The translations under genes were made by a program, and so were the position numbers. Below the pieces are notes generated by a model, which worked only from the letters and a program-made list of their open reading frames with translations, searched no databases and was not told the origin of the DNA. 32,684 bases of DNA, from assembly GCA_021378535.1 (NCBI GenBank), contig JAACJV010000012.1:1-32684 (forward strand), in the 5' to 3' direction. Below are positions 16,792 through 32,684 of this stretch, piece by piece; position 1 is the stretch's first letter; every line of letters begins with the position of its first letter. Source of the stretch: Ureaplasma sp. Hg1 (GTDB lineage: Bacteria; Bacillota_I; Bacilli_A; Mycoplasmatales; Mycoplasmoidaceae).

Positions 16792-17454
16792 ATGAACATT
16801 AATAGCATTACCATTCTTGTAGCTGTTCTAATTGGATTAACTGTTGTTATAGTTAGTTTTATTATTTTTTACAGCAGATTAAAGAAAACCAAGTTTGTCT
16901 TTAACGAAAAACCAACGATGAAAAAACGTAATTATTATCAAATCATTAGTTTAGCAAGAATGCTAAACATTTTTCAATGATGCCAAGAAAATAATTTGCA
17001 GCATCATTTTAATTTTATAATGGTTGAATTAAGTGGCCGCAAGGATATAAAAGAAATTCCCGAATATTTGTCTTGACTACAAAATTATAATCATAAAAAA
17101 TTAACACGAAAACAAATTTTAAAATATTCTTTACAATTATATAAAGATTTAGAAAAACGTTTAACTATTTTTGAGAAATTATTAAATGATATGATTGAAA
17201 CAGCTCAAAAAAATAATCAAAATAACGATGAAACCAATAATCTACGTGATTGTATTACAGAAGCTAAGAAAAAAATAAAAATAATATTACGCTCTCCAAA
17301 AAAGAGGGCAATTAAGGATCAACTTTGAGATATTGATCATAATGTTATAAGTTTATTTAGTCTAATCTCACGAGATCACCCATATTTTCTTAAAATTGAG
17401 ATCGAGATTGTATTTGTACATATTATTATGGAGATGCTAATTCAAATTTATTAA
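16792..17454 (+). CDS. Hypothetical single-pass membrane protein, 220 residues
   Basis: The product is not recognised. One N-terminal membrane segment (about residues 6-28, ITILVAVLIGLTVVIVSFII) has few residues ahead of it. A basic segment and then a largely helical, Lys/Asn-rich soluble domain follow (about 30-220). The long helix around 100-165 (LQLYKDLEKRLTIFEKLLND) could be coiled coil. Trp codons are mostly TGA. No ribosome binding site is seen; the ATG sits at the expected transcription start. It ends tail-to-tail with the repeat gene, with only 8 nt between the stop codons. Confidence 0.75.
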
Positions 17455-27935: not shown

Positions 27936-28994
27936 ATGAAAAATAAATTTAATGATACCAAACCATATAAAGATTACAAACCAGAAATAGAAGCTTCACT
28001 TAAAAAGAATGTTAAATCATACTTTACAAGTATTCGCCACACCGATGTGGGGAAAGAATATTTTAAGCTCAAATCACCATTTTTAATATTCGGTATTCCA
28101 GCTTTATTTTTAACCGCAACCATTCTTTTAATTATTAGTTTAGTTTTTGCTGGAATTAACGGCTTAGGTGAGTGGAATTGATATCAATATTCATTAATTG
28201 CAGCAATTGCTTTAGATGTTATTAGCGGGTTATTATATATCAACTACGTTAATCAAATGCGAAATTTAGCACGATTCATTGGGAATAATATTAATGCTCC
28301 TGAAATTTTTAAACATTTCATTAAGGAATTGGATTGAATTGATTGTAACGACAAGACTTTAAAAAATACAGTAAATGAACGCGACGTAGAATGATGAATT
28401 CACCAGTCTAGTTGAGCCGCAGGTGCATCAAGAGGTTCAATGGTATCAATGGACCAACCTTTAAGTGGCACAATTAATCACAACCCCTTTACAATCACAT
28501 TTGCTCAATACTCGGTTGTCAATACTAACAATCGAGATAAGGAATATATCAACGCTTTATTTATGGAAGTAGACACACATATTCTTCCAGAGTTGAATAT
28601 GTTTATTGGGCCATCACATAGTTCTGTTACCGTTCCTAATCTTAAAGAAGACGTTATGGAAGCACAAGCTTTTACAAAGCAACATAAAGTATTTGATAAT
28701 AACCAAATTAAAGGAAGAATGTTCCTAACGCCATATGCGCAAGAACAATTAGTTAATATTAAAAAATGGGAACCAGACATGAAATTCCAATTTATCAAAC
28801 AAGGTTCTAGAATTATGATAATGGCTCCAACTGATTTTATGCAATTCATGTCATACCATTTAGATGAAACGAAAACAATCGCAAAATTAAACAAAAAAAT
28901 TGTTAATGCATTTAGCGAGCAATTTGAATGGGTTTATACGATGGCTTCATATTTAAACTCAATCCCTATGTTACAAGCAGAAGTATATGAGTAA
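27936..28994 (+). CDS. DUF3137-like membrane protein
   Basis: This is a 352-residue protein. A hydrophilic start (residues 1-45) is followed by two membrane segments (about 48-73 and 86-104). A soluble domain of about 240 residues follows, with PLSGTINHNPFTITFAQYS, then MEVDTHILPELNMFIGPSH, and later IKGRMFLTPYAQEQLVN. This plan fits the DUF3137 family found in Mollicutes and other bacteria, whose function is unknown. The ribosome binding site is weak (AAGAAAG). It uses both TGG and TGA. It is monocistronic between two terminators. Confidence 0.75.
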
Positions 28995-29043: not shown

Positions 29044-29049
29044 TATAAT
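29044..29049 (+). promoter_or_regulatory. -10 box of a leaderless transcript
   Basis: TATAAT ends exactly 6 nt before ATG 29056, so the first transcribed base should be the A of the start codon. No Shine-Dalgarno is present. The box is squeezed against the preceding terminator. Confidence 0.65.
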
Positions 29050-29055
29050 TAGTTT

Positions 29056-30903
29056 ATGCAGATAATATTAGATTCTTCGTTTTTTACATCAATCATCTTA
29101 TTACTCTTCTTAACTTTATGTTTTTTTACAATTATTTATTTTCTTGTTGCTAGTTTAGAACGCAAGCAAGTCATTAAAGAAAAAATTCTGAAACACAAAA
29201 TAAGAAGAAATTTTTTCTATTGTGTTATTGGTTTATTGGTTGGATCAATATCGTTTATTCTAGTCTTTGTTTTGAATATTTTAGGTGGCGCATACATTAG
29301 CACAATTTTTATTGCACTAACATTAGTATTTGCCTTATTAGCATCTCCAATTATTTTTTATGCAGGAGCAATACCCATGATGTTAGCCAACATCGCATTT
29401 AACGTCCATAGCTGGTCAGTTCAAGCTATTTTATTCCCTATTATTGCAATCATCATTTCAGGTTTTATGTTATTTGTTTTAGAATGATTTAAATTGAAGA
29501 AAATGCATCATTTAATTTATGGTTATCTATTAGTATCTATACTTAATATTTTAATTGCTTTATTCATGACTTCAACAGCAATGTATTTAGCTAATGTTAT
29601 TGATATTATTGTAAATTATTTTGTTGCTTTAATATTATTTTATATAGGCAATTATATTAAAAATTTAATTGCCAGTAGTTATAGTTTACAACAATCAATT
29701 ATTTATGAAAATATCCATTTCATTAAAGCTAGTTTTGCCAAAAACGCGATAGATAATTTTATCAAAAATAATAATGTTGAAACTGGTTTTGTTTTTATTT
29801 TTAGTTTTCTTGGAATCGACAAGGTGCCGATTGAATCAGGTAATGCAGCAAGTCATATTATTAAGGCAAATATTTTGAACCGTCTAGTTAATTTATTTAA
29901 GGGTAGTGATGTTATTTTCTTTAAGACTACAACAAATAAATTTGCAGCTTTTATGAAGGTAGATCGCAACAATATAAATTTAATTGAAATGTATAAAAAT
30001 AACCAACATATTTCAAGGGATGAAACGGATGCCTTAAAATTATTATCAGAACAATTAAAGCTTATTCCTAATGACATTATTTATAATGATCGTAATTATC
30101 AAATTTTAACTTTTGCTGATGTTTCAATTTATGGAGTCCATTCTTGTGATATTAATTACTTAGTATCAACTTGTGAGCGAATCATGGAACAAATCAATGT
30201 TTATCAAGGTTATAATAATATTCAAGTTTTCAATCCAAATGAAGATGAAGAAGTAAATAACCGTGCTAATGAAATTGCTGTTTTAAAAAATTATATTCAA
30301 CCTAACGAAGTAAATATTTTAATTGAAGCGGTTACACCTATTACTCCCATAAACAAAACCCTTTATGAAATAAGAGCAAATATTTTTAAACGACTTTTAT
30401 TTACTAAAGAACAAATTTATGATATTGGCAATAAACGAAACATTAGAGTAATCATAATGAAATATATTTCAGCTAATGGTTTGAATGTTTATTCACAACT
30501 TAGTGGAACCGAAATTAAAAATAGTAAATTAATTATTGATTATCCACTATATGAAATAGAAAGAGAAAAGTTTTCTGCTACAGCTTTATATAAGAAAATA
30601 CAGTCCTACAATGTGGATCCAAAACAAATAGTGATTAATTTAAATTTTAAATATAACTATTTATTATCAAATAATTTAATAAACAATATTAATCGGTTAA
30701 AGACTATGGGATTTAGCTTTTGCATTTCAAAAGTAAATGAGCAAACATTACCATCAGTCATTAAAATTAAACCCGAATATGTATCGTTGAGTCTTCCAAA
30801 ATTTAACGGATACAATACTGAGAAAAACGAGATTTTAAATTATTTAGCAATCCAAATTAAATTTTTAAAGGAACAAAACATTACCACAATTCTTTTGCAC
30901 TAA
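29056..30903 (+). CDS. Membrane protein with degenerate GGDEF- and EAL-like domains
   Basis: This is a 615-residue protein. Residues 1-200 contain six or seven hydrophobic segments, and a TGA Trp at 144 joins the parts. Residues about 240-385 look like a GGDEF-type fold with the active-site signature replaced (TTNKFAAF at 292-299). Residues about 412-615 follow the EAL pattern. The EAL position reads YEI (437-439), and the INLN strand (527-530) and LKTMGF (548-553) match. ISKVNE stands where the metal-binding DDFG lies, then IKIKPEYVSLS. No catalytic residues are recognisable, so a binding or scaffold role is likelier than c-di-GMP turnover. Assignment rests on pattern only. Confidence 0.7.
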
Positions 30904-31010: not shown

Positions 31011-31016
31011 TAAAAT
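31011..31016 (+). promoter_or_regulatory. -10 box of a leaderless transcript ahead of the diadenylate cyclase
   Basis: TAAAAT ends exactly 6 nt before ATG 31023, with no Shine-Dalgarno. This is the same geometry as 16780-16785 and 29044-29049. Confidence 0.5.
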
Positions 31017-31022
31017 ATTTAT

Positions 31023-31637
31023 ATGATTTTTGAAGATAAAATTTTAATTGCTATTGTTGTAATTGTTACGGCAATATTATTATTAACACTTCTACTTACT
31101 TTTAGTAAGGAGAAGGTTTTCACTTCTCTAGAACGCATCGGCTTGGTTCATAAAAGGAAGAATAAAATAGAAAACGCACTTAATTATAATGAAATTTTAG
31201 CAAGTACATTAATTAAACTATCAAATGATAAAACAGGTGCAATCATTATTTTTGAATTAAAGGATGACCTCAAGCGTTTCGTTGAGTTAGGTTATGATGT
31301 GCGGACTAGATTTTCGCCTGAATTTGTAACCTCAATATTTTATAACAAAAAATCACCTCTTCACGACGGAGCCATGATTGTTAAAAATTGAGAAATTATT
31401 TCAGTTTCTAGTTATTTACCAATGACTATACAATTTATCAATGTCCAACTAGGAGCGCGTCACCGTGCTGCGATAGGGGTGTCGGAATGTTCGGATTCAA
31501 TAAGCTTTGTTGTTAGTGAAACAACAGGTGGAATTTCGTTAATTGAGAATGGTGTGATTACCCAATTGCCCGATACAATGTATCAATTAGTGAATACAAT
31601 AACCAAAACATTTGCTGGTAAAATAAAACCTAATTAG
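31023..31637 (+). CDS. cdaM: Diadenylate cyclase, CdaM type
   Basis: This 204-residue membrane-anchored enzyme condenses two ATP into cyclic di-AMP. One N-terminal membrane helix (about residues 7-27) replaces the three of Bacillus CdaA, as known for Mycoplasma pneumoniae CdaM. The DAC domain has the catalytic DGA at 115-117 and RHR at 146-148 (GARHRAAIG), plus SEETG-like SETTGGIS. Trp123 is TGA. The start appears leaderless. A magnesium channel gene begins 12 nt downstream and is probably cotranscribed. c-di-AMP typically controls potassium and other ion or osmolyte transport. Confidence 0.93.
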
Positions 31638-31649
31638 GATGTGAGTTTC

Positions 31650-32684
31650 ATGATTAATAATAATCTAAAAGAAAAACTACATAAAAAAACTACTAAGATT
31701 GAAGCATCAATTCATACTATTAATAAACTTTGTCAAGATAAAGATGTTAAAGGATTGTTACGTTTTATTAAACAAAAAAGTATTGATGTTATCGTAGAAT
31801 CGTTGGATGAAATCGATGATATTCAAATAACTTTATTTGTTTTGATTGCGACAAAGGATAAAGAATGTGGCGAAATATTTAAATATTTATCTGATTCCAA
31901 ACGCGAAGACGTAATATCAACTGCAACATTTAAACAATTAAAAATTATTGTAAATGAAATGTGACCTGATGAAGTTTTAGATTTAAGTGATGAATTACCA
32001 CAATATTTTAAATCAATTCTTTTGGCGTTAGATAGTGACATGCGTGTAGCTGTTAAAAAAATTGCTAAATTTACTGAAGATGAAGCTGGTAGTGTAATGA
32101 ATCCAGACTTTATGACGCTAAGAGAAAAGTGGACAATTAAAGAAGCAATAATAGAAATTAAGCGGAACCGGGATGAATATGAACCACAAGTTGTTTATTA
32201 TGTAACTGATGATGAAGGTATTTTGAAAGGCAGTGTTACTGTTAGTGAAATATTTTTCACTGATGACTTTAACGATACAATTGAGCATATCAGTAATGTC
32301 CGTCAAACGGCAGTAAAAGCGAATGATGAATTGGAAGAAGTAATTGATATTTTTGAAAAATATCAATGTGAATCTTTGCCTGTTGTTGACGAGGAAAACA
32401 AAATAGTAGGATATATTAGTGATAACGATATTTTACCTGCTATTAGTGAAGAAGCAACTGAAGATATTTACAATATGTACGGGATTACTGATCTTCAATT
32501 TCCTTATATGAAATCATCGATTTGAAGTATTGCTAAATCACGTTTATTATGACTAATTATTCTAATGGTATCAGCGACATTAACAACAGTTGTTATTGAT
32601 CAATTTCAACAACTAGGATTCATTTTAACGGCTGGTTTATCGACTGTTGTTTTAATTCCTATTTTACCAGTTATTAGTGGTTCA
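31650..32684 (+). CDS. mgtE: Magnesium transporter MgtE, 3'-partial
   Basis: 345 residues are visible before the window ends. A helical N-domain (about 1-140) has repeated short helices (VIVESLDEIDDIQITLFVLI). Two CBS domains (about 150-275) follow, with VMNPDFMTLREKWT and ESLPVVDEENKIVGYISDND. The first membrane helices then appear, and the fragment stops at the conserved PVISGS. MgtE is a magnesium channel gated by cytoplasmic Mg2+ through the N and CBS domains. ATG 31650 is preferred over an in-frame GTG at 31641, with AGGATGTGAG upstream. Close coupling to cdaM hints at joint control of cation homeostasis. Confidence 0.93.

Follow-up and report, generated by a model that had tools for sequence, protein, structure and literature searches.

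A GGDEF-EAL-like gene in the window, the 32,684-nucleotide stretch of Ureaplasma sp. Hg1 DNA analysed here, encodes a membrane protein of 615 residues whose GGDEF-like and EAL-like domains have both lost their catalytic residues, and which is under strong purifying selection. The protein is probably a regulator or scaffold and not an enzyme. Our preferred reading, to which we give an even chance, is that of a membrane-anchored, catalytically dead GGDEF-EAL adaptor or regulator, ancestrally co-expressed with a c-di-AMP/Mg2+ module and having in addition a function of its own. The open reading frame (29056-30903, plus strand) is read with genetic code 4, its single TGA codon encoding a tryptophan (W144); its features and those of the following genes are listed in Table 1.

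Table 1. Features of the GGDEF-EAL-like gene and of the downstream genes in the window.
Feature	Position	Strand	Residues	Basis or remark
-10 box TATAAT	29044..29049	+		6 nt to ATG; predicted leaderless start; sequence
Membrane part	29056..29694	+	1-213	~7 TM helices; hydropathy and model
Signalling-type helix, continuation of last TM helix			174-213 (model helix)	Predicted model
Degenerate GGDEF-like domain	29695..30255	+	~214/240-400	GGDEF position is TTNKF (292-296)
Family motif SIYGxHS			357-363	Inside GGDEF-like domain
Degenerate EAL-like domain, C-terminally truncated, with stop codon	30256..30903	+	~401-615	
-10 box TAAAAT of cdaM	31011..31016	+		6 nt to ATG; sequence
cdaM-like diadenylate cyclase	31023..31637	+		PF02457 2.2e-31; DGA and RHR motifs intact; one N-terminal TM segment
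mgtE, Mg2+ transporter, N-terminal part	31641..32684	+		Gene cut by window end

Residues 7-213 are predicted to form about seven TM helices, from Kyte-Doolittle peaks and the helices of the predicted model, in line with the six to seven membrane segments of the first-pass annotation; this part matched no Pfam model. A mixed alpha/beta cytoplasmic part follows in the predicted structure, to which GGDEF and EAL folds had been assigned by pattern. Single-sequence searches with the 615-residue protein (hmmscan, phmmer) gave no match to Pfam or NCBIfam models and no noteworthy PDB chain, so that the protein alone did not suffice to confirm this call. Its relatives were more informative. Eleven homologues were found by tblastn among 59 relatives, and three of them (L008, L009 and L011, the last at 2.1e-20) pass the curated cut-off of the Pfam EAL model (PF00563), which the 615-residue protein itself does not reach. 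A seven-row family alignment used as query recovered three named loci. In an alignment of 49 family members, 24 match Pfam EAL (best 1.7e-22), while other members match the NCBIfam models for RimA, LapD (12/49) and CsrD (8/49). Moreover, the family profile retrieved the EAL domain of FimX from the PDB at 8.9e-7.

Two template-free AlphaFold2 models of the protein, built from four-row alignments, are of modest confidence (mean pLDDT 64.7 and 63.4, pTM 0.40 and 0.43). Their top structural matches in Foldseek are GGDEF-EAL tandems, with DosP first (1.2e-12 and 1.0e-15), followed by PA0861, PA0575, MorA and LapD (LapD at 1e-8). The first domain is predicted to adopt the GGDEF fold, with a target TM-score of up to 0.76 against GGDEF structures, and the second an EAL (beta/alpha) barrel that lacks its last element, with a target TM-score of about 0.5-0.56. 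Sequence evidence from the relatives and predicted structure agree on the GGDEF-EAL fold despite the modest confidence of the models, which bears out the assignment by pattern. In a class-wide search, the matches listed from outside the order covered only the GGDEF-EAL region and never the membrane part; among them there was no intact orthologue sharing this N-terminus. A search of a viral collection returned nothing.

Catalytic positions were taken from a MAFFT alignment with PdeL, PdeR and CsrD of Escherichia coli; the aligned sequences are very divergent, and these positions may be shifted by one residue in single members. The EAL catalytic set E, N, E, D, D, K, E, Q reads L, D, N, S, K, S, L, gap in the 615-residue protein. 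The EAL glutamate, the NxS asparagine, the ELTE glutamate, both DDFG aspartates and the lysine are replaced, and the protein stops just past the strand expected to bear AEGVE, the last glutamate and the glutamine being absent. With the GGDEF motif also replaced, the original observation that every signature had been lost stands, and it extends to the family. None of the 49 members keeps the EAL glutamate or a complete EAL catalytic set, none has a GGDEF or GGEEF motif, and the DD, K, E and Q positions are overwhelmingly replaced or absent. An ExLxR string in L080 was considered as a retained EAL motif and dismissed as a chance occurrence, as it sits away from the position of the EAL motif. Families f1 and f11 have a shortened C-terminus, with at most 60 residues past residue 560 of P0001, compared with about 86-112 in f5, f7 and f8, and within f1 the EAL end has been lost progressively. 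Among the best-conserved positions of the family are Y359-G360 in the GGDEF-like domain, Y496 and F506 in the EAL-like domain and G59 in the membrane part; conserved polar positions are few in the EAL part.

No GGDEF domain (PF00990) was found in the organism's own genome, which is 85% complete, and no convincing diguanylate cyclase was found in the order, where PF00990 gave weak matches in 6 of 320 genomes and one above the cut-off. In the published view c-di-GMP is not used by mollicutes apart from Acholeplasma laidlawii (PMC11535214), and the near-absence of GGDEF matches in the order fits this. Mycoplasmatales relatives that carry the family thus appear, from their sequences, unable to make c-di-GMP. 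An active c-di-GMP phosphodiesterase or cyclase was rejected, as the catalytic residues are lost and no convincing diguanylate cyclase was found in the 320 genomes. A c-di-AMP phosphodiesterase of the GdpP type was likewise rejected, the 615-residue protein giving no DHH-DHHA1 match. Two genomes of family f4 (G315 and G038, loci L099 and L100) encode a different EAL-like protein, undetected by the family profile. Another mollicute protein with an EAL-like region, U1 of Ca. Oceanoplasma callogorgiae, is described as having one TM segment and a signal peptide (PMC11535214), and by this description would differ from the present family.

Could the dead domains still serve as a receptor, with c-di-AMP or another nucleotide bound in an altered EAL or GGDEF pocket? 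Nucleotide receptors do occur among inactive EAL domains, FimX for one, which is also the family profile's best match in the PDB, and the gene is linked to cdaM. However, all canonical pocket residues are replaced, the barrel end is absent in the clade of the 615-residue protein, the EAL part has few conserved polar positions, and the gene is kept in genomes that have no cyclase. We consider a receptor unlikely, although either the barrel or the GGDEF-like domain may have gained a new pocket for a ligand, a possibility that counts against the adaptor reading.

Selection on the gene was estimated by comparing the window with L101, a congeneric MAG ('Ureaplasma sp. Hg2'). The complete gene has an omega of 0.065; taken by region, omega comes to 0.073 in the membrane part, 0.048 in the GGDEF-like domain and 0.063 in the EAL-like domain, and high dS makes all of these values rough. 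The neighbouring nusG (0.053), DUF3137 gene (0.056) and cdaM (0.067) give similar ratios; the gene is under strong purifying selection, comparable to that on its neighbours. The loss of catalytic residues, the progressive loss of the EAL end in f1 and a patchy distribution might evoke a functionless, decaying relic of ancestral c-di-GMP signalling. Such a relic is contradicted by the omega of 0.065 between two species of the genus, and the open reading frame is intact in most families and retained in small genomes of about 0.4-0.8 Mb; we find this explanation scarcely credible.

In the window the gene is followed by cdaM after a gap of 119 nt, each with its own leaderless-type promoter. The first-pass annotation had named the next gene as a diadenylate cyclase, which its domain match and intact motifs corroborate, and had described both genes as leaderless with identical spacing, as the two putative -10 boxes also indicate (Table 1). 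This arrangement of -10 box, 6 nt and ATG recurs for both genes in the sister species L041, where the orthologue of mgtE matches MgtE, CBS and MgtE_N. Many other genes of the window bear Shine-Dalgarno-like sequences; a 220-residue gene of unknown family at 16792-17454 has the same TATAAT-N6-ATG start. Between nusG and the GGDEF-EAL-like gene lies a gene for a DUF3137-like membrane protein (27936-28994, 1.6e-6), also found in the sister species.

Gene order was read at 59 loci, fewer than the 84 genomes that carry the family (f, g, L and G are our labels for families, genera, loci and genomes). The gene lies directly upstream of cdaM at 19 examined loci from three families (the window, L041-L043, L048, L050-L055, L061, L067, L068, L071-L073, L075 and L076); L103, which comes from an uncultured member of the Mycoplasmatota, shows it too. 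It overlaps cdaM by 14 nt in L071, by 1 nt in L072 and L073, and by 8 nt in L075 and L076, with a Shine-Dalgarno-like (GGAG-type) site for cdaM within the upstream gene. Tandem duplicate diadenylate cyclase genes occur directly after the GGDEF-EAL-like gene in L073 (G115 contig 4, 101401-102432). The order rnr-smpB-[GGDEF-EAL-like gene]-cdaM-mgtE is common to f7 and f11 and is probably ancestral, as judged from its occurrence in these families. In genus g9 of f1 the pair with cdaM has been kept while the flanks on both sides differ from this order. The pairing with cdaM does recur in related genomes, with 19 adjacent loci from three families and some overlapping genes, but it is not obligatory. 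Of about 29 scorable genomes with both genes, about 10 have them apart. Many genomes of the order have cdaM next to mgtE but no GGDEF-EAL-like gene (e.g. G070, G072, G073, G086, G101 and G124).

A profile of 12 members, searched against 320 genomes of the order, found the family in 84 of them. These are draft genomes of unequal completeness, and absence of the cyclase or of MgtE here means absence of a Pfam match. On this basis 34 of the 84 have a diadenylate cyclase and 50 have none detectable, and MgtE is undetected in 32. Both are present in 15 genomes, the cyclase without MgtE in 19, MgtE without the cyclase in 37 and neither in 13; the organism's own genome is scored as having MgtE, since the window contains the start of that gene. 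The cyclase occurs without the GGDEF-EAL-like gene in 186 genomes. No diadenylate cyclase was matched in any f5 genome searched, unlike in most other families of the order. In genus g47 of f5 (G208-G218, G220 and G221) the family gene is kept in the absence of any detectable diadenylate cyclase or MgtE; at 4 of the 5 loci examined there a trmB-like methyltransferase gene comes next, then others, and never mgtE. The gene is independent of both cdaM and mgtE, and its retention where both are missing shows that the protein also has a separate function.

These counts bear on the two roles first envisaged, a receptor for c-di-AMP or a dedicated regulator of the cyclase, neither of which is supported as stated, given the 50 genomes without detectable cyclase and the 13 without cyclase and MgtE. 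The latter role would make the protein a mollicute counterpart of CdaR that touches CdaM at the membrane and sets c-di-AMP synthesis. YbbR/CdaR gave no match in the 615-residue protein and none among 20 relatives, which leaves the cyclase there without a known regulatory partner and makes a CdaR-like role possible where both genes occur. Adjacency and translational overlap with cdaM in several lineages, the intact pair amid changed flanks in g9, and the same kind of leaderless promoter for both genes in the window also speak for it. A dedicated regulator would be expected always together with the cyclase, however, and this fails in the 50 genomes; the two genes are non-adjacent in about 10 others, and 186 genomes run the cyclase without the gene. 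A dedicated CdaM regulator is in our opinion doubtful. We also lean against a broader version, in which a dead seven-TM GGDEF-EAL family was recruited after the loss of c-di-GMP as a membrane sensor and regulator of both CdaM and MgtE, replacing CdaR.

Alternatively, the protein might be a regulator or partner of MgtE, or of Mg2+ or osmotic balance, its link to cdaM being secondary. In 23 of the 30 cyclase-less loci examined mgtE follows the gene directly, at a distance of 2-31 nt in the f5 loci that retain it there, and cdaM-mgtE adjacency exists without the GGDEF-EAL-like gene. Adjacency to mgtE in cyclase-less genomes is nonetheless automatic once cdaM is deleted from the three-gene order, and 32 of the 84 genomes have no detectable MgtE; we regard this role as quite improbable.

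The adaptor or regulator reading accommodates both the linkage and the independence of the gene. c-di-AMP has been reported to bind MgtE in Bacillus subtilis (PMC8844918; PMC8316131), so cdaM and mgtE make sense as a unit, and the ancestral co-expression of the GGDEF-EAL-like gene with this c-di-AMP/Mg2+ module points to a role in regulating or scaffolding it. The approximately seven TM helices would act as an input or anchoring domain, continued by the signalling-type helix into the dead GGDEF-like domain and then into the dead, partly dismantled EAL barrel. Protein-protein contact would be the most likely mode, a membrane or ionic signal being relayed to partners, or partners being held at the membrane. 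Where cdaM and mgtE are present, the genes would be co-expressed and c-di-AMP synthesis and/or Mg2+ transport plausibly tuned. This mode is modelled on the inactive GGDEF-EAL proteins LapD, FimX and CsrD, but would be free of c-di-GMP; it is by this analogy that we infer the mechanism, and the adaptor role, the partners and the lack of nucleotide binding are likewise inferred. Against the adaptor or regulator reading, the linkage may be leftover ancestral order beside the housekeeping genes rnr and smpB, 186 cyclase-bearing genomes do without the gene, and the structural models are of modest confidence.

Comparison with known systems helps to place the family. LapD is likewise membrane-anchored, with a signalling helix, a dead GGDEF and then a dead EAL domain. 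LapD has a periplasmic output domain and uses its EAL site to bind c-di-GMP, whereas the 615-residue protein has no canonical site, a membrane part of about seven TM helices and no c-di-GMP cyclase found to serve it. FimX shares the inactive GGDEF-EAL tandem but is a soluble c-di-GMP receptor that retains its c-di-GMP-binding residues. CsrD, the E. coli RNA-decay adaptor, is a membrane protein with both domains degenerate; its EAL site is better preserved (E, R, E, K, Q) and its membrane part differs. CdaR, the regulator of CdaA in other Firmicutes, is also a membrane protein encoded next to a diadenylate cyclase, but has YbbR domains and no sequence relation to the 615-residue protein. Finally, GdpP combines TM segments with a degenerate GGDEF domain in a c-di-AMP context, and bears DHH-DHHA1 instead of EAL.

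At the head of a cdaM-mgtE operon, a conserved GGDEF-EAL protein that is dead but under selection offers a concrete candidate through which the membrane could feed into c-di-AMP/Mg2+ balance, and bears on how mollicutes regulate CdaM without CdaR. The family also provides an example of a second-messenger enzyme pair that has outlived its catalysis, and probably its messenger too. Since many complete genomes of 0.9-2.2 Mb carry it, those of cultured spiroplasmas probably among them, the question would be testable.
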